A stretch of DNA of 64,000 bases from positions 535,659 through 599,658 of the forward strand of contig BQKD01000001.1 in assembly GCA_022834735.1 (NCBI GenBank). The letters are read 5' to 3'. Origin of the DNA: Erysipelotrichaceae bacterium OPF54 (lineage in GTDB: Bacteria > Bacillota_I > Bacilli_A > Erysipelotrichales > Erysipelotrichaceae). The position numbers and the translations under genes were made by a program. Shown piece after piece: positions 40,800 to 49,924 of the stretch. Numbering within the stretch: the first letter of the stretch is position 1; every line of letters begins with the position of its first letter. The notes beneath the pieces are model-generated. The model did not search any database and was not told where the DNA came from. It saw nothing but the letters and a program-made list of their open reading frames with translations.

Positions 40800-41185
40800 T
40801 GTCCAATCAAGTGCAACATCTAATGTAAGTGTTATAAAGTAAACACTTCGTTAGGTGTTTTAAATTCTAAATATTTCCGTGGCGTGTTATTCATTTTATC
40901 AAGATTGATCCGAAGCTTATCTTCGTCAACTAAAGATAAAGTCCATTCCTTTTGAATAATGCTCTCTCAATAATCCGTTTGTGTTTTCACTTGTTCCTTT
41001 TTGCTACTCACAATACGGATCCCCAAAATATGTTTTACAATTTAACTCTTTTTTATCTCTTTATAGTCAGGAAACTCCTTGCTTCTATCAAATGTAATTG
41101 TCTTTACAAGCTCATCAGAATATTCTTTTAATGCGTTGATGATGGCTGTGTAACCTCGGTTGCTGTTCTGGTCGTTTCCGGTTGT
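40800..41185 (-). pseudogene. IS30-family transposase remnant
   Basis: Read on the minus strand, several frames together spell the C-terminal half of an IS30-type DDE transposase: ITFDRSKEFPDYKEI, YFGDPYCE, GTSENTNGLLREHYSKGMDF, NNTPRKYLEFKTP. Frameshifts and a stop interrupt it and the N-terminal half is missing. The sequence near 40802-40820 (GTTGCACTTGATTGGAC on the minus strand) resembles the terminal repeat of this IS family. The element is dead. It borders the CRISPR-Cas island. Confidence 0.75.
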
Positions 41186-41457
41186 AGAAAAGCATAGTAT
41201 CATCTTTTTCCTCCATGTTTTGTACTTAAATCTATTTATATTTCAACGGATTTAAGGTGAAATGTATAATGCTTTTTGTATGCGAAAGTATGAGATTTTT
41301 GCATAGTGAAAAGATGTTTTGCAATAGAACAATCAAGTATAAGTATAAACAAAAGCATATATAGAAAGTGCTTACTAAAAAGAATATAATATCAGTAATA
41401 ACATGGGATAAAACATTTGCAGGGATACTTAATTGCTTCAGAGTTATAAAAAGACAG

Positions 41458-41559
41458 AAAAAAGGGCACATGTCCACTAAAAGGACCTGCCCGCCAAATG
41501 GTGGTGTGTTCGGTTCTTTCCAAACTGGAAAGCCTTATTTGAACTCACTTGTAAATTTC
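41458..41559 (-). ncRNA. tracrRNA of the type II-A CRISPR system
   Basis: On the minus strand, about 102 nt. The anti-repeat (41537-41560) pairs with the crRNA repeat: TTTGA with repeat positions 2-6, a small internal bulge, then 14 bp (ACTTGTAAATTTCA, repeat positions 10-23). After the anti-repeat comes AAATAAGGC, close to the same place in S. pyogenes tracrRNA, then a CTTTCC/GGAAAG hairpin (41516-41532), a weak hairpin, and a terminator stem GGGCAGGTCC/GGACATGTGCCC (41464-41492) with U6. Start predicted from the promoter at 41566-41593. Confidence 0.88.
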
Positions 41560-41565
41560 AAATAA

Positions 41566-41593
41566 ATAGTATCACGGTAAGCTGTTTTGTCAA
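41566..41593 (-). promoter_or_regulatory. tracrRNA promoter overlapping the cas9 RBS
   Basis: On the minus strand, a perfect TTGACA (41588-41593), 16 bp, and TACTAT (41566-41571). The -35 abuts the cas9 Shine-Dalgarno AAGGAGG on the opposite strand, so tracrRNA initiation and the cas9 leader share the same few bases. Confidence 0.8.
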
Positions 41594-41606
41594 GGAGGAA
41601 AAGATT

Positions 41607-44600
41607 ATGAATCAAAAAAACAATGAAGGTTACTTTATAGGATTGGATATGGGAACTTCTTCTGTTGGCTGGGCAGCTACAGATACTCATTACAATCTGA
41701 TCCGCGGAAAAGGGAAAGATTTGTGGGGTGTTCGTTTATTTGAAGAAGCTTCTACAGCACAGGAGAGGAGAACGAACCGAACGAGCCGGAGAAGAAATCA
41801 AAGAAAAAAACAGCGGATTGCGTTTGTGAAAGAAAAATTCAGAGCAGAGATAGAGAAAGTGGATCCGAATTTCTTTAAGAGACTGGATGAAAGTCAGCTT
41901 TATTTGGAGGATAAAACAATCAAAGCTCCTTATTTGCTGTTTAATGACCGGAATTTTACGGATCAGGATTTTTACCGGCAGTATCCGACTGTTTTTCATT
42001 TAAGAAGCGAGATGCTCAATTCTGATAAAAAATTTGATATTCGTGAAATTTATATTGCGTGTTCTAGTTTATTCGAGCATCGGGGGAATTTTTTGAATAA
42101 ATCATTGGGTAGTGATGTTTTGGATGGTGAGCAGATTTTTCATGATCTTAGTGAAGTTTCTGAACACTGCGGAATTGACTGGAATCTGAAACATACAAAG
42201 CTTTATGAAGTCAGAAAAATTTTGAGTGACAGAAATACTACCAGGACGAAAAAACTGGATGAACTAAAAGAATGCTTAGAGATTGATAAAAAAACAGAAA
42301 AAAATAAAATTGAATTTTTAAAGCTTCTATGCGGAAACAAAGCGGATCCGAAAATAATGTTCCCTCAATATACGTTTGATTCGGATTCAGTATCTTCTTT
42401 CACATTTATGGATGCAAACTGGGAACAAAGTCTTTCGGCAATCGAAGATAAAATATCTACAGATGAATATGATCTGATTCTTGTATTGAAAAGTATATAT
42501 GACTGGAGCATTATAGCAAATCTAATGAAAAACGAAAAAACTGGTGGAATGTATCCTTATTTGTCTATGGCTCGTAAAGATTCCTATGATAAGCATAAAG
42601 AAGATCTTCATTTGTTAAAATCGGTTATCAAACGTCTGGTGCCTGAGGAATATAACCGCTTTTTTCGTGAATATAATGAAAAAGGTAATGTTTATACAAA
42701 CTATATTGGTTCAGTACAGTATCATGGAAAGAAACAGCGTTTCAAACATAGCACTAGAGAAGATTTTTATAAGGAAGTCAATAAGCTTCTGAAACCTTTT
42801 GAAGGAAAGGACGAGGAAGTTGACAGGATTTTTAAAGAAATTGAGTTGGCAACTTTCATGCCTAAGCAGATCACAAATATGAATGGTGTGATTCCTAATC
42901 AGGTTCATGCAAAGGAATTGATAGTTATTTTAGAGAAGGCAAGCAAATATTATGATTTTTTAAATAAAATTGATGAGAGCGGTCTTACGGTTAAAGATCA
43001 GATCATACAGATGTTTACGTTCCAGATTCCTTATTATGTAGGCCCCTTGGCCAATTATAACGGAAAAGGAAATGGCTGGGCTGTCCGTAAGCCTGGAGAG
43101 GAAACGACGAAAGTTTATCCATGGAACATAAGTAAGGTAATTGATGAAAAAGAAACGGCAGATCAGTTTATTAAACGAATGATTAAGACTTGTACTTATC
43201 TTGGAGATGAATATGTTTTACCTAAATCTTCGATTCTTTATCAGAAGTTTGCGGTATTAAATGAACTAAATCCGTTAAAAATTGACGGACAGCCGGTATC
43301 GGTAGAGCTCAAACAAAGTATTTATCATGATCTATTCGAAAAAGGAAAAAAAGTAACTCAAAAGGGATTAATTAACTATCTAAAGAAAGAGGGAGTGATT
43401 CCTAAGAATGGAGAAACTGTCTTATTATCTGGATTTGATATTGATTTTAAAAATACACTTTCTTCTTATCGAAAATTCTGTGATGTTTTTGAAGCGAAAT
43501 CTTTAAATGATAAACAAATCCAAATGGCCGAAAATATCATTGAATGGTTAACAGTTTTTGGAGATTCGAAAAAATTTGTTAAAGAAAAAATAGCGGAAAG
43601 CTACCCTCAGCTGAATAAACAGCAGGTCAAACGAATCCTGAGCTTTAATTTTAAAGACTGGGGTCAGTTGTCTAAGCAGTTTTTGGAACTGGAAGGAGAA
43701 GATCTGGAGACTGGTGAATACCATACGATCATTCAATCGCTTTGGGAAACGAATAATAATCTTAATCAGCTAATGAGTAATCGTTTTACTTATAAAGAAC
43801 AACTGAATAAGAAACGTAAAAAAATCGATAAGGATCTTTTTGAATTTACTCATGAAGATCTAAATGATCTTTATATTTCAGCGCCGGTCAAACGTATGGC
43901 GTGGCAGACCATGAAAATTATGAAAGATGTTGTCACGGTGATGAAGGAGCCTCCGAAGAAAATTTTTATTGAAATGACACGTAGCGATGGAGAAAAAGTA
44001 CGTACAGATTCGAGAAAGAAAAAACTAGCTCTGCTATATCGAAAAATCAAAGGAGAATCACGTGACTGGATAAAAGAAATCAATAAATATGAAGATAAAG
44101 ATTTCAGAAGCAGGAAACTGTATTTATACTATACCCAGATGGGAAAATGTGCGTATTCCGGCGAGCCGATTGATATGGAGCGGCTGTTTGATAAGAACGT
44201 GTATGATATTGATCATATTTATCCTCGATGCAGAGTAAAAGATGATAGTCTGCTCAATAATTGCGTATTAGTAAAACGAGAGGAAAATACGAATAAAGAA
44301 GATCTCTTTCCTGTTCGTCCTGAAGTCCAGAATAAGCAGGAAAGCCTATGGAAATTCTGGCTTGAAAAAGGATTGATATCTCAGGAGAAGTTCAATCGTC
44401 TGACAAGAAAGACTCCATTTACTGATGATGAACTGGCTAACTTTGTAAATCGTCAATTGGTTGAAACGGGACAAGCGACAAAAACAATTGCGGATTTATT
44501 CAAATTTACATTTCCAAAATCGGAGATTGTTTACGTCAAAGCAGGCAATGTAACGGAATTTAGAAATAAATTCAAGCTCTATAAATGTCGCGAAGTCAAT

Positions 44601-45707
44601 AATTTCCATCATGCGCATGATGCTTATTTGAATATTGTTGTTGGAAATGTGTATGATACAAAATTTACGAAAAATCCAAGAAACTATATTAAGGAGCAAA
44701 AGAAAGACGATTCAAAAGAAAAGTATCATATGAATAAGATATTTGAATATCCGGTATCAAGAAATGGTGTAGATGCATGGATTACGAAACAAAATGAAAG
44801 TATCAATATCGTGAAGAAAACAATATCCAAAAAAACACCAATTATTACAAAGAGAAGCTATAAAGCTTCTGGGCCAATTGTGAAAGCAACAATTTATCCA
44901 AAAAATAAAACAAAAGATGAAAGTTATCTTCCAAAGCAAACGTCTGTACCTGCTTTGAGGGATATGAAAAAGTATGGAGGAATGACAGATATAAAAGTAG
45001 CTTATTTCTTTTTGGTTGAGCATGAAGAGAAGGGGAAGAAGATTCGTACTTTAGAAGTTGTTCCATTTTATAAAATAAGCGAATTAAAAACGAAAGAACA
45101 ACTACAATCCTATTGTGAAAAAGAATTACATTTTATTAAGCCTGTTGTGCGATGCAAAGAGATTAAAATGTATTCTCTTTTGAATATTAATGGTGTTTTA
45201 TATTACATTACAGGCAAAACCGGAAAATATTGTTCATTAACCAATGCTATGGAATTGTACGTGAATCAGAAAGTTATAGATCATATTCGAAACATAGTTA
45301 AATATAAAAATATGGGATATTTCAATGGTGCAGAGGAAGATTTTGTTGCAGAAAACTTGAAATTATACAATTTATTGAAAGATAAACATTTAACTGTGTT
45401 TAATAAACGACTAAATCCAGAAGGAGAAAAGCTTGAAAAATATCAAACTGTATTTGAAAAATTATCTATAGCTGAACAGGTTGAAATACTTTTACAAATA
45501 TTACGTTTAACTTCGACTAATAGAAAAACAGAGGCTGATTTAACTTTAATCGGAGGTAGTGCACACGAAGGAACACTTAAATTATCAAAAAATCTTACAA
45601 GATTTGCAAAGGATCAGGTTAAGAATGGACAAATACCGAAAATTCTTTTGATTAATCAATCGCCGTCAGGTCTATTTGAAAGTGAAATTGATCTGCTGAC
45701 TGTATGA
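41607..45707 (+). CDS. cas9: CRISPR-associated endonuclease Cas9, type II-A
   Basis: A 1366-aa RNA-guided DNA endonuclease. RuvC-I is GLDMGTSSVGWA with catalytic D14; an Arg-rich bridge helix follows at about 54-72; RuvC-II is FIEMTRS with E about 789; the HNH site is DIDHIYPRC with H about 870; RuvC-III is HHAHDAY with D about 1005. All nuclease residues are intact. Length matches the large II-A group. AAGGAGG lies 8 nt before the ATG. The stop overlaps cas1 (ATGA). The gene is clearly more AT-rich than flanking host genes, a sign of transfer. The PAM cannot be read from the sequence. Confidence 0.97.
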   Translation: MNQKNNEGYFIGLDMGTSSVGWAATDTHYNLIRGKGKDLWGVRLFEEASTAQERRTNRTSRRRNQRKKQRIAFVKEKFRAEIEKVDPNFFKRLDESQLYLEDKTIKAPYLLFNDRNFTDQDFYRQYPTVFHLRSEMLNSDKKFDIREIYIACSSLFEHRGNFLNKSLGSDVLDGEQIFHDLSEVSEHCGIDWNLKHTKLYEVRKILSDRNTTRTKKLDELKECLEIDKKTEKNKIEFLKLLCGNKADPKIMFPQYTFDSDSVSSFTFMDANWEQSLSAIEDKISTDEYDLILVLKSIYDWSIIANLMKNEKTGGMYPYLSMARKDSYDKHKEDLHLLKSVIKRLVPEEYNRFFREYNEKGNVYTNYIGSVQYHGKKQRFKHSTREDFYKEVNKLLKPFEGKDEEVDRIFKEIELATFMPKQITNMNGVIPNQVHAKELIVILEKASKYYDFLNKIDESGLTVKDQIIQMFTFQIPYYVGPLANYNGKGNGWAVRKPGEETTKVYPWNISKVIDEKETADQFIKRMIKTCTYLGDEYVLPKSSILYQKFAVLNELNPLKIDGQPVSVELKQSIYHDLFEKGKKVTQKGLINYLKKEGVIPKNGETVLLSGFDIDFKNTLSSYRKFCDVFEAKSLNDKQIQMAENIIEWLTVFGDSKKFVKEKIAESYPQLNKQQVKRILSFNFKDWGQLSKQFLELEGEDLETGEYHTIIQSLWETNNNLNQLMSNRFTYKEQLNKKRKKIDKDLFEFTHEDLNDLYISAPVKRMAWQTMKIMKDVVTVMKEPPKKIFIEMTRSDGEKVRTDSRKKKLALLYRKIKGESRDWIKEINKYEDKDFRSRKLYLYYTQMGKCAYSGEPIDMERLFDKNVYDIDHIYPRCRVKDDSLLNNCVLVKREENTNKEDLFPVRPEVQNKQESLWKFWLEKGLISQEKFNRLTRKTPFTDDELANFVNRQLVETGQATKTIADLFKFTFPKSEIVYVKAGNVTEFRNKFKLYKCREVNNFHHAHDAYLNIVVGNVYDTKFTKNPRNYIKEQKKDDSKEKYHMNKIFEYPVSRNGVDAWITKQNESINIVKKTISKKTPIITKRSYKASGPIVKATIYPKNKTKDESYLPKQTSVPALRDMKKYGGMTDIKVAYFFLVEHEEKGKKIRTLEVVPFYKISELKTKEQLQSYCEKELHFIKPVVRCKEIKMYSLLNINGVLYYITGKTGKYCSLTNAMELYVNQKVIDHIRNIVKYKNMGYFNGAEEDFVAENLKLYNLLKDKHLTVFNKRLNPEGEKLEKYQTVFEKLSIAEQVEILLQILRLTSTNRKTEADLTLIGGSAHEGTLKLSKNLTRFAKDQVKNGQIPKILLINQSPSGLFESEIDLLTV

Positions 45708-46570
45708 GCTGGCGTACTGTAGTAGTTACTCAAACGTGCAAGCTGGATTATCAGCAGAATTATCTGGTTGTTCGAGGAAAAGAAACGTTGAAGGTTCATA
45801 TTCAGGAAATTGCGGTGCTGATGATTGAAAGCACCGCCGTTTCCCTCACTACATATTTGTTAAACGAGCTGATTAAAAACAAAGTAAAAATTATCTTCTG
45901 CGACGAGAAAAGAAACCCATGCAGCGAGCTTGTTCCGTATTATGGAAGTTTCGATACGAGTTCAAAAGTTCGTAATCAGATTCGATTTAATAAGGATATA
46001 AAAACAGAAGTTTGGACAAAAATTGTACGGGAAAAGATTTGTCAGCAAAAACAACTGCTTAAAGATTTAGAAAAAGAGGAATATCTTCTTCTTGAGCAGT
46101 ATGAGAAGAATGTTATATCAGGAGATTCGACAAATAGGGAAGGCCATGCGGCCAAGGTGTATTTTAATTCTTTATTTGGAAAGTCCTTTTCAAGAAAAGA
46201 AGATAATTCGATCAATGCAGCATTGAATTATGGCTATTCTTTGATTCTTTCAGCTATCAATCGGGAAATATCTGCCAATGGTTATTTAACTCAGCTTGGT
46301 TTATTCCATAATAATGTTCATAATCCATTTAATTTAGGTTGTGACTTGATGGAGCCTTTCCGTCCTTTAGTTGATCGTGCAGTAGTTGATAATAAATTTG
46401 AGCAATTTGGAAAAGAAGAAAAACAATTAATGCTGGCGCTTTTATCTCAGGAAGTGATGATTAAAGGGAAAAAGGAAAAGCTACTCAATGCGATAAAGAT
46501 TTACGTGAAAAGTATTTTTGATGTGCTCGAAGAACAGGATGAAAGCCTGATCAGCTTTTATGAGCTATAG
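45704..46570 (+). CDS. cas1: CRISPR integrase Cas1
   Basis: A 288-aa type II Cas1 that with Cas2 inserts new spacers. Likely metal ligands are the Glu in STNREGHAA (about 146), the His in LGLFHNN (about 205) and the acidic residue in DLMEPFRPLVDR. It overlaps cas9 by 4 bp and cas2 by 11 bp, giving tight coupling. Length is normal for type II. Confidence 0.96.
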   Translation: MSWRTVVVTQTCKLDYQQNYLVVRGKETLKVHIQEIAVLMIESTAVSLTTYLLNELIKNKVKIIFCDEKRNPCSELVPYYGSFDTSSKVRNQIRFNKDIKTEVWTKIVREKICQQKQLLKDLEKEEYLLLEQYEKNVISGDSTNREGHAAKVYFNSLFGKSFSRKEDNSINAALNYGYSLILSAINREISANGYLTQLGLFHNNVHNPFNLGCDLMEPFRPLVDRAVVDNKFEQFGKEEKQLMLALLSQEVMIKGKKEKLLNAIKIYVKSIFDVLEEQDESLISFYEL

Positions 46571-46880
46571 GTATATGCGAGTAATGGTTATGTATGATTT
46601 GCCTGCGGTGACTGCAAAAGAAAAGAAGATTCATCATGATTTCCAGAAATTATTGGTTCAGTCCGGTTTTCTAATGATGCAGGAAAGCATTTATTGCAAG
46701 CTGGCTCAAAATCAACAGGCGGCTGATGCGATCATCAAACAGTTGAAGAAACAGTTGCCTGATAAGGGACTTGTTCAGGTCTTGACTATTACGGAAAAAC
46801 AATTTGCCAAGATCGAATATTTGGTAGGTAAAAAAGTGTCAGAAGTCATTGATACAGATGATAGGGTCGTGATCTTATGA
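46560..46880 (+). CDS. cas2: CRISPR-associated Cas2
   Basis: A 106-aa ferredoxin-fold partner of Cas1. The conserved Asp is in MVMYDLP (D13), followed by a typical HHDFQKLLVQSGFLMMQESIYC helix-strand. It begins inside the end of cas1 and overlaps csn2 by 4 bp. An internal Met at residue 6 is an alternative start. Confidence 0.95.
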   Translation: MSYRYMRVMVMYDLPAVTAKEKKIHHDFQKLLVQSGFLMMQESIYCKLAQNQQAADAIIKQLKKQLPDKGLVQVLTITEKQFAKIEYLVGKKVSEVIDTDDRVVIL

Positions 46881-47551
46881 AACTTGTCTATTATGAATAT
46901 GGAATCAAAATAAATTTTCGGGAAAATAGAATTCAAACATTAGTTCTTGAACGACCAAAAGTATTTGCTGAGTTTGTTCAAACGTTCTTTCAACAGTTCC
47001 AAGGCAAGGATGGAGCAATAATCCTTTCGGATCAAGATGAAATCAATATTCATAAAGAAGTTGAATTGATCATGGATCCGATCAATATAGATATAAATAA
47101 CAAACGGGTCATTGGCCAACTCTATAATGAACTTCATAATATTGCCAATGAATCATTGGAAGAAAAATTTAAGATCAATAGTGAAATTGTTAATTACCTG
47201 GATCAATTAGTCTGGAAATCTTCTTATGAAAATTTACAATTGATACCCATACCAAAATGGGAGAACCTGTTTAAGCTTTATGAAATCAAAATTGATGTGG
47301 AAACAACATCTTTATTTGAAAAGCTGATTGAATATTTAAAAGTATGTTCTTCTATTCTTAAACTTCGGCTATATGTTTTCGTAAATTTAAGGCAATACTT
47401 TGAAGAAGCGGAGATGCAGGAATTTATAAATTGGGTAAAAAGGTTAAAAATTCATGTTTTATTGATTGAATCTGTTGAACCAGTGTATAATGCAGATACA
47501 GATGTTTATATCATCGATCAGGATTATTGCCTGATTGAAAAGATCTATTGA
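46877..47551 (+). CDS. csn2: CRISPR adaptation protein Csn2
   Basis: A 224-aa Csn2, the ring-shaped DNA-end-binding protein that marks subtype II-A and is needed for spacer acquisition. The N-terminal MKLVYYEYGIKINF strand and the later KLRLYVFVNLRQYF and VLLIESVEP strands match the short Csn2 type. It is last in the cas operon, ending 94 bp before the first repeat. Confidence 0.93.
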   Translation: MKLVYYEYGIKINFRENRIQTLVLERPKVFAEFVQTFFQQFQGKDGAIILSDQDEINIHKEVELIMDPINIDINNKRVIGQLYNELHNIANESLEEKFKINSEIVNYLDQLVWKSSYENLQLIPIPKWENLFKLYEIKIDVETTSLFEKLIEYLKVCSSILKLRLYVFVNLRQYFEEAEMQEFINWVKRLKIHVLLIESVEPVYNADTDVYIIDQDYCLIEKIY

Positions 47552-47645
47552 AATTTGAACCGATTTCACCAATTGGAAAAGTATCAGTGACAACTTATAG
47601 GCTCTTTTATACATAAAGAGCCTATTTTATCAATGTTAATTTGAG
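47552..47645 (+). promoter_or_regulatory. CRISPR leader with ATTTGAG anchor
   Basis: Between csn2 and the first repeat. It ends with ATTTGAG (47639-47645) directly against repeat 1, the leader-anchoring motif known from streptococcal type II-A loci, so new spacers should be added here. A weak promoter TTGGAA (47573-47578), 17 bp, TATAGG (47596-47601) is followed by a strong hairpin (47597-47624). Confidence 0.75.
47597..47628 (+). terminator. Hairpin in the leader, possible cas-operon terminator
   Basis: ATAGGCTCTTT pairs with AAAGAGCCTAT, followed by TTTTAT. It could end the cas operon; if so, array transcription must start within the remaining 20 bp, read through, or start inside repeats. 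Confidence 0.6.
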
Positions 47646-49268
47646 GTTTGAGATACTTGTAAATTTCATTAGTTCTAAAACTTTTCTTTGCATTCCGAAT
47701 CTGCGTAGGAGGGTTTGAGATACTTGTAAATTTCATTAGTTCTAAAACTGTAAGAAAAAAATTGATACGGTGCAAGGCGTTTGAGATACTTGTAAATTTC
47801 ATTAGTTCTAAAACGGTTCGGACGATCTCTGAATCCGGCATAGGGTTTGAGATACTTGTAAATTTCATTAGTTCTAAAACCGTTCATGATGACTTCCTGC
47901 ACCTTCTTTGGTTTGAGATACTTGTAAATTTCATTAGTTCTAAAACAGCTACCAAAATAAAGACACCTTGCAGGGCGTTTGAGATACTTGTAAATTTCAT
48001 TAGTTCTAAAACTCGCATCCCGCATGCCTTGGAAGTAAACCGGTTTGAGATACTTGTAAATTTCATTAGTTCTAAAACTTTTAATGTTCTAATTTTTGTT
48101 GTCTAAAAGTTTGAGATACTTGTAAATTTCATTAGTTCTAAAACCCAGAGGGAACACCAAAAGACTGCATAGCCGTTTGAGATACTTGTAAATTTCATTA
48201 GTTCTAAAACGCGAAACCCCTTGAGTAGAGGAACGATATGGTTTGAGATACTTGTAAATTTCATTAGTTCTAAAACATTTCAACACCTGACAGCGCTAAA
48301 ATGTAGGTTTGAGATACTTGTAAATTTCATTAGTTCTAAAACTTTAAAGCGTTTCTCTCGGGGATGCATCCCGTTTGAGATACTTGTAAATTTCATTAGT
48401 TCTAAAACAGCTCAAAAGAAAGCTGGAGAGAAGTCAAAGTTTGAGATACTTGTAAATTTCATTAGTTCTAAAACTATTCAGAGTTTGAATGTAATCAATT
48501 ACATGTTTGAGATACTTGTAAATTTCATTAGTTCTAAAACCATAAATGATAAGGAGCGACAAGAGGAGATGTTTGAGATACTTGTAAATTTCATTAGTTC
48601 TAAAACCCGCCATCAACTCTCTAAATTCTTCAATGGGTTTGAGATACTTGTAAATTTCATTAGTTCTAAAACTGCAGAAGACGTGACCGATATTGTAGAG
48701 GGTTTGAGATACTTGTAAATTTCATTAGTTCTAAAACCTATATCGATTTTTCTTGAGTCTGTACGCTGTTTGAGATACTTGTAAATTTCATTAGTTCTAA
48801 AACCCTAAAATAAGCCCCTCGGCGATTGAGAGCGGTTTGAGATACTTGTAAATTTCATTAGTTCTAAAACTGCGGATTAAACGCCTGCGTGTTGTCGCAA
48901 AGTTTGAGATACTTGTAAATTTCATTAGTTCTAAAACGGTATGTATATTGCGAGAAATACGATATGATGTTTGAGATACTTGTAAATTTCATTAGTTCTA
49001 AAACACACTCCAAGGAATAGCACTATCAACGGCGGTTTGAGATACTTGTAAATTTCATTAGTTCTAAAACTGATAACCCGTGGGCAATGTTCAAAAAGGG
49101 GTTTGAGATACTTGTAAATTCATTAGTTCTAAAACTAGAGACAAATCCATGACAATATCGCAGATGTTTGAGATACTTGTAAATTTCATTAGTTCTAAAA
49201 CTCAGCAGACTTCACGCCGAGTATACTATTCAGTTTGAGATACTTGTAAATTTCATTAGTTCTAAAAC
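47646..49268 (+). CRISPR. CRISPR array, 25 repeats and 24 spacers
   Basis: Repeats of 36 bp begin GTTTGAGATACT and end TTAGTTCTAAAAC; spacers are 29-31 bp, mostly 30. Repeat 1 is at 47646-47681 and repeat 25 at 49233-49268. All copies are identical except repeat 23 (49101-49135), which lacks one T and is 35 bp, consistent with the leader-distal end being older. Pairing with the tracrRNA anti-repeat shows that crRNA is read on the + strand. Short frames through the array spell EILVNFISSKT again and again; these are repeat artefacts, not proteins. Confidence 0.99.
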
Positions 49269-49306
49269 TCACTTTTGATTTTGATGTCAAAGTGAATCTT
49301 TTTTAT
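49269..49306 (+). terminator. Terminator at the end of the CRISPR array
   Basis: TCACTTTTGA pairs with TCAAAGTGA (one bulge) and is followed by a T6 run directly after the last repeat. Confidence 0.75.
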
Positions 49307-49324
49307 ATCATTCCTCATTAATGC

Positions 49325-49330
49325 TACAAT
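49325..49330 (+). promoter_or_regulatory. Extended -10 of the leaderless HD gene
   Basis: TGCTACAAT is an extended -10; the ATG follows after 6 nt (AACCCT), with no SD. Confidence 0.55.
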
Positions 49331-49336
49331 AACCCT

Positions 49337-49924
49337 ATGAACAACAAAGAAAAATTTATTGAACTGTACAAGGAACATATCCATCGGGAAGGGGCGGACA
49401 AATTTCTTGAATACTTGTGCTCTTCCCATTCGGATTTCTTCGAAGCGCCGGCATCTACCCGCTTTCACGGCAACTATAAAGGAGGGCTTGTCGAGCATTC
49501 GCTTCATGTGTATGAATGTCTGAAAGACTATCTGGCAAGACAGCGCTGTCATGACGAATACAAGCTGAACTATTCGGATGAATCGATCGCGATCGTGGCC
49601 CTGCTGCACGACATCTGCAAGATCAATGTGTACAAGGAGTCGACCCGCAACAAAAAGGTGAATGGACAGTGGGTGCAGGTTCCTTATTATGAATTCGAGG
49701 ACAAGATACCGTTCGGACATGGAGAAAAATCGGTCTACATCCTGCAGAGCTACTTTCATCTGACAAGAGAGGAAGCATTTGCGATCCGCTATCATATGGG
49801 CTTTTCCAATGATGATCCGGCACGCAACGTGGGATACAGCTTCGAGCATTTTCCGCTTTCTTTCGCCTTGAGCACCGCCGACATGGAAGCAACGTACTTT
49901 CTTGACCGGACCGAAGAGAATTAA
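49337..49924 (+). CDS. HD-domain hydrolase, YhaM-like
   Basis: A 195-aa HD-superfamily metal hydrolase. Metal ligands are in FHGNYKGGLVEHSLHVY (first His), ALLHDICK (HD pair) and later RYHMGF and STADMEA. It resembles the HD part of the 3'-5' exoribonuclease YhaM without its OB domain. It lies right after the CRISPR terminator but has host-like codon use and its own promoter, so it is probably not part of the CRISPR locus. Function: phosphohydrolase on nucleotides or RNA, unproven. Confidence 0.85.
   Translation: MNNKEKFIELYKEHIHREGADKFLEYLCSSHSDFFEAPASTRFHGNYKGGLVEHSLHVYECLKDYLARQRCHDEYKLNYSDESIAIVALLHDICKINVYKESTRNKKVNGQWVQVPYYEFEDKIPFGHGEKSVYILQSYFHLTREEAFAIRYHMGFSNDDPARNVGYSFEHFPLSFALSTADMEATYFLDRTEEN

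Follow-up and report, generated by a model that had tools for sequence, protein, structure and literature searches.

Does the interval 41458–49268 of the window (the whole 64,000-nt stretch of DNA analysed here) hold a complete and working type II-A CRISPR-Cas system, and does its Cas9 use a guide RNA and PAM of its own? The original prediction answered the first part with a complete, probably active locus and offered the second as a possibility. The interval runs from the 3' end of the tracrRNA to the last repeat, and contains the following features.

41458–41563, minus strand: tracrRNA, with its 5' end at about 41563, its terminator hairpin and T-run ending at about 41458, and the anti-repeat TGAAATTTACAAGTGAGTTCAAA at 41560
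41566–41593, minus strand: candidate tracrRNA promoter, TTGACA, 16 nt, TG-A-TACTAT (consensus match only)
41607–45707, plus strand: cas9, 1366 aa (TIGR01865, E 1.8e-269; Pfam domains; full-length match to FrCas9, 9JWK)
45704–46570, plus strand: cas1, 288 aa (TIGR03639, E 1.6e-93)
46560–46880, plus strand: cas2, 106 aa (TIGR01573, E 2.4e-20)
46877–47551, plus strand: csn2, 224 aa, short form (TIGR01866, E 1.3e-46)
47552–47645, plus strand: leader, terminating in the leader-anchoring ATTTGAG (47639–47645)
47585–47593, plus strand: CAGTGACAA, a variant with one mismatch of the clade-wide leader motif CGG[TA]GANAA
47597–47625, plus strand: perfect terminator-like hairpin within the leader, followed by TTTTATC (from folding; putative function)
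47646–49268, plus strand: CRISPR array of 25 repeats of 36 nt (number 23 has 35 nt) and 24 spacers, read from the sequence

The predicted gene order and coordinates agree with the sequence (40800–49800) and the ORF listing: cas9, cas1, cas2 and csn2 follow one another on the plus strand with overlapping ends, and the listing shows no frameshift or stop in any of them. Bit scores exceed the family cut-offs for Cas9 (TIGR01865, 897 versus 100), type II Cas1 (TIGR03639, 313 versus 120), Cas2 (72.6 versus 24.5) and Csn2 (TIGR01866, 159 versus 35; NCBIfam). The csn2 equivalog is a marker of type II-A, and here it shares one operon with the other three genes. With tracrRNA, leader and array also in place and no cas gene broken, the locus is complete, as had been claimed. 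Our preferred explanation, at a probability of about 0.92, is a CRISPR-Cas adaptive immune system of type II-A that is intact and whose Cas9 belongs to the FrCas9 clade. That gene order has misled us and the system belongs to type II-B or II-C is next to impossible: type II-C would be without csn2 and type II-B would have cas4 in its place, whereas csn2 is present with a match that excludes both, cas4 is not in the operon, and the 1366-aa Cas9 falls in the FrCas9 II-A clade. This is the sole Cas1 locus in the 3.22-Mb genome, and the array is the only one with its repeat. Between the upstream esterase-like gene and the tracrRNA, we spotted by eye a broken remnant of an IS30-family-like transposase (40832–41242, minus strand) with interrupted frames; it may be a trace of how the locus arrived.

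The predicted tracrRNA is real. It occupies the minus strand of the intergenic region upstream of cas9, so that the two are divergent, and has a promoter and a terminator. In silico, its anti-repeat is complementary to the repeat, pairing with repeat bases 1–23 around a short bulge (cofold –45.2 kcal/mol). Downstream of the anti-repeat, a CTTTCC/GGAAAG stem leads to a small hairpin and then to a terminator, GGGC...GCCC with T6. A consensus scan places the promoter, TTGACA-16-TACTAT with a TG extension (extended –10), at 41593–41566, where it overlaps the region just ahead of the cas9 ribosome-binding site. No tracrRNA family in Rfam matched; the top-scoring entry, ncr1241, overlaps the tracrRNA but falls short of its cut-off. 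The array had been described as 25 uniform repeats. The count is right and 24 of the repeats are perfect, but the 23rd (49101–49135) has a 1-nt deletion. The 24 spacers are 29–31 nt long.

The Cas9 carries the Pfam bridge helix, REC, RuvC, HNH and PAM-interacting (PI) domains, with all catalytic residues of RuvC (D14, E789, H1002, D1005) and HNH (D869, H870, N894) there. Among solved structures, the best match is 9JWK (full length, 1239 bits), which is FrCas9 (PMC13052146), of Faecalibaculum rodentium. Identity to FrCas9 is 44.9%, as assembled from printed alignments, and 44% in the PI domain. The nearest Cas9 found, at 71% identity, is that of Firmicutes bacterium M10-2 (KE159700.1, our G142:C20). 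In a Cas9 tree of 88 rows, built by a quick method, the window and M10-2 proteins are sisters and join FrCas9 with an SH-aLRT of 99; these three lie outside a large group that is mostly Lachnospiraceae. Relatives in genome contigs were found with an alignment query, a single-sequence query having matched nothing.

This placement, which the original prediction had called for, bears on novelty. Near identity to a characterised Cas9 would have undone that claim, and the best solved relative is only ~45% identical. FrCas9 itself is characterised and has an NNTA PAM (PMC8931148). The window Cas9 adds a new ortholog to an already characterised group and does not represent a new kind. The idea of a separate guide-RNA pairing and PAM survives in part: the repeat does differ from streptococcal and listerial ones, but the novelty is smaller than supposed, given the characterised FrCas9 clade and the abundance of GTTTGAGA repeats. 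The latter are widespread, occurring in nearly all related Lachnospiraceae arrays, so the window repeat is typical of its clade. Two further relatives came to light. One is a full-length Cas9, 44% identical to the window's, encoded on a human faecal contig of 64 kb labelled 'Bacteriophage sp.' (MT835488.1:58274-62314); it is either phage-borne or host DNA in the record. In another genome (G002:C1:669923-674089), a relative's Cas9 gene exists only in stop-separated pieces, yet 42 repeats remain; this is probably a decaying sister locus, or the product of sequencing errors.

M10-2, for which we found no mention together with Cas9 in the papers we searched, has a II-A locus like that of the window in its 36-nt repeat, anti-repeat, tracrRNA promoter layout and leader hairpin, but unlike it in chromosomal site and in all of its spacers. 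Its array has 16 perfect repeats, identical to the window's, and the two arrays have no spacer in common. Identities are 71% for Cas9, 81% for Cas1, 89% for Cas2 and 77% for Csn2, with 60% in the PI domain of Cas9. The anti-repeat is unchanged, the tracrRNA structure is kept with different hairpin loops, and the promoter keeps its –35 element and spacing with TAAAAT as its –10 (TTGACA-16-TAAAAT). The genes that flank the window locus (esterase-like and HD-hydrolase-like) are close neighbours in M10-2, separated by a single HAD-type gene, which implies that within the genus the locus either moved or was acquired independently. Neither Cas9 nor the repeat is present in a third genome of the genus.

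The leader meets the first repeat at ATTTGAG|GTTT (47639–47649), the anchor expected at a II-A junction; ATTTGAG is the leader end of group 1 II-A systems (PMC5382924), and 46 of 58 related leaders end in exactly this string. The motif CGG[TA]GANAA is found in 27 of the 58, compared to 0.2 expected, and in 25 of those 27 it sits 19–28 nt upstream of the first repeat. In Lachnospiraceae leaders, a small inverted repeat often stands ahead of it. The string CGGTGA is absent from the main text of PMC5382924. The variants in the window and in M10-2 (CGGTGACAA in the latter) lie ~60 nt from the first repeat, because an 11-bp hairpin with a T-run is interposed. Folding indicates that M10-2 retains the stem of this hairpin with a changed loop. 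A terminator scan did not list the hairpin (47597–47625); we infer a putative cas-operon terminator overlapping the array promoter.

The original prediction had proposed that the spacers be searched against phages and plasmids and the flanks of any hits aligned. Pooled spacers gave only a 22-nt chance-level match in INPHARED phages and no match in PLSDB plasmids, and exact scans of IMG/VR with spacers 24, 16 and 5 found none. Genomes at the order level yielded only partial matches of 19–25 nt, which we treated as chance. The search did succeed closer to home. Across 273 genomes of the family, three of the 24 spacers could be assigned, each to a perfect protospacer in a mobile element of a family member.

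48079–48108, plus strand: spacer 7, protospacer in G085:C67, 3' flank TGTACT
48673–48701, plus strand: spacer 16, protospacer in the plasmid-like contig G085:C47, 3' flank CAAACT
49202–49232, plus strand: spacer 24, protospacer in an M10-2 prophage (G142:C12), 3' flank GAAATT

The spacer 24 target is a small gene just upstream of the endolysin gene. G085 belongs to another genus, and of its two short contigs matched by spacers 7 and 16, one has a repressor-like gene and an integrase and the other has ParA/ParB-like genes. Two M10-2 spacers add to these. Spacer 11 finds a perfect match in the G085 contig already hit by window spacer 16, and spacer 1 has a perfect protospacer in an ICE-like element of G085 (a GIY-YIG gene near a MobA-type relaxase). 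M10-2 spacer 1 also matches the window's own chromosome perfectly (G000:C1:3019503), within an integrated ICE-like element (G000:C1, ~3008000–3032000) that the window's own array does not target and in which an IS-like pair of genes (ORFs of 456 and 268 aa) occurs twice. We found no window spacer that targets its own genome. In IMG/VR relatives of the M10-2 prophage, searched with all 40 spacers, there were no further protospacers, and queries with ParB and the integrase retrieved no viral loci. These prophage relatives are near-identical around the endolysin, with the spacer 24 site replaced by diverged sequence; recombination and escape each fit, neither being proven. The three own and two sister sites, although few, place the spacers' sources in mobile DNA next to a candidate 3' PAM.

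The flanks of the two M10-2 protospacers are TAAAAA and TGAAAA. Across the five sites, position 4 is always A, position 2 is always a purine, and position 3 is A in four and T in one. The pattern NRWA (N-R-(A/T)-A) fits five of five flanks, from which it was itself derived, and has a background of 10.8% in the targeted elements; NRAA fits four of five. NRNA, the part shared with FrCas9's NRTA, fits all five (P ~2e-4, or ~2 of 10000 random draws); for an invariant column taken by itself, the expectation is 4.6% of draws. For FrCas9, NNTA is reported to be needed, and a bacterial depletion assay suggested NRTA (PMC8931148). We predict, with moderate confidence from these flanks, that the PAM of the window Cas9 is 5'-NRWA-3', mostly NRAA, and related to FrCas9's NNTA/NRTA, with position 3 seemingly changed from T to A. 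One caveat here is that only three of the five flanks speak for the window Cas9 itself and the other two for its M10-2 sister (71% identity overall, 60% for the PI domain), which leaves the exact form NRWA soft. Within the array the flank is GTTT, which is at odds with NRWA, and hence the array would be spared.

A plain, FrCas9-like NNTA, with the A at position 3 due to chance or to tolerated non-canonical recognition, is an alternative account. FrCas9 is the closest characterised Cas9, scattered non-canonical NNAN has been reported for it (PMC8931148), and the spacer 7 flank is TGTA. This is, however, the only one of the five flanks to fit NNTA, a frequency not above the 6% background, and four of the five are NRAA; we regard this account as doubtful. 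Going back to the A-rich pattern, a broader proposal can be put forward tentatively, at somewhat less than even odds: the PAM of this one Cas9 of the FrCas9 clade would have drifted from NNTA to an A-rich NRAA/NRWA, with a sister Cas9 at 71% identity keeping the same repeat and anti-repeat while changing most in the PI domain (60%), and the leader hairpin would terminate cas-operon read-through close to the array promoter.

Is the system working? In the established type II-A mechanism, Cas1, Cas2 and Csn2 together with Cas9 would integrate each new spacer between leader and first repeat, at ATTTGAG|GTTT; the array would be transcribed on the cas-gene strand; each repeat would pair with the divergently transcribed tracrRNA and then be processed; and the Cas9 ribonucleoprotein would cut spacer-matching phage, plasmid or conjugative DNA adjoining a 3' PAM. 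To this scheme, in which expression, processing, cleavage and the PAM stand as predictions, the window contributes its parts, the complementarity of its RNAs, a conserved leader anchor and perfect protospacers in the mobile elements of the family. A locus could also be intact and yet silent or decaying, its genes persisting beside an array that no longer works or grows, and the base deletion in one internal repeat would fit, as would the terminator-like hairpin 20 nt upstream of the first repeat, which could block read-through into the array. We consider this improbable, as the cas genes are unbroken, 24 repeats are identical, and the leader hairpin and leader end are kept in M10-2 despite a diverged locus (Cas9 71%). 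Furthermore, the wholly different M10-2 spacer set indicates that both arrays turned over after the split, and perfect matches to elements of family members imply recent acquisition. The system is probably active, with expression, crRNA maturation, cleavage and spacer acquisition all predicted; the original 'probably active' is well supported, though indirectly, by the intactness of all parts, by the conserved anchor of the leader, and by protospacers in mobile elements of the family that match perfectly and share a PAM-like flank.

Biologically, this is an ordinary immune locus. The analysis adds a position beside FrCas9, a sister in M10-2 whose repeat is identical, and a testable prediction of an A-rich PAM. 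The window and M10-2 proteins form a second, divergent pair of natural orthologs beside FrCas9, which is prized in genome editing for the TA in its PAM; an NRAA/NRWA PAM, if true, would open other AT-rich targets. Being 71% identical and sharing one repeat, they also offer a clean pair for following the evolution of PAM recognition with the guide RNA nearly fixed. The prophage, plasmid-like and ICE-like sequences hit by the spacers also tell us what mobile DNA is in circulation among these bacteria.

Among known systems, that of FrCas9 shares with the window locus the type II-A gene set, an array on the cas strand and, upstream of cas9, a tracrRNA encoded on the other strand (PMC8931148), and the two Cas9 proteins align end to end, PI domain included. 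The systems differ in tracrRNA length (~106 nt predicted for the window, T-run included, versus a reported 71 nt without the T-run), and the protospacer flanks of the window locus are mainly NRAA instead of NNTA. The II-A loci of Lachnospiraceae with GTTTGAGA repeats (such as those of Eubacterium ramulus and Butyrivibrio hungatei) share the wider Cas9 clade (~42–48%) and the ATTTGAG leader end, but not the repeat interior or the leader spacing. SpCas9 (Streptococcus pyogenes, type II-A) is like the window Cas9 in mechanism class, domain layout and size; however, the match is mostly limited to residues 8–1028, with the PI domain unaligned at the threshold used, and its system has another repeat and another expected PAM.
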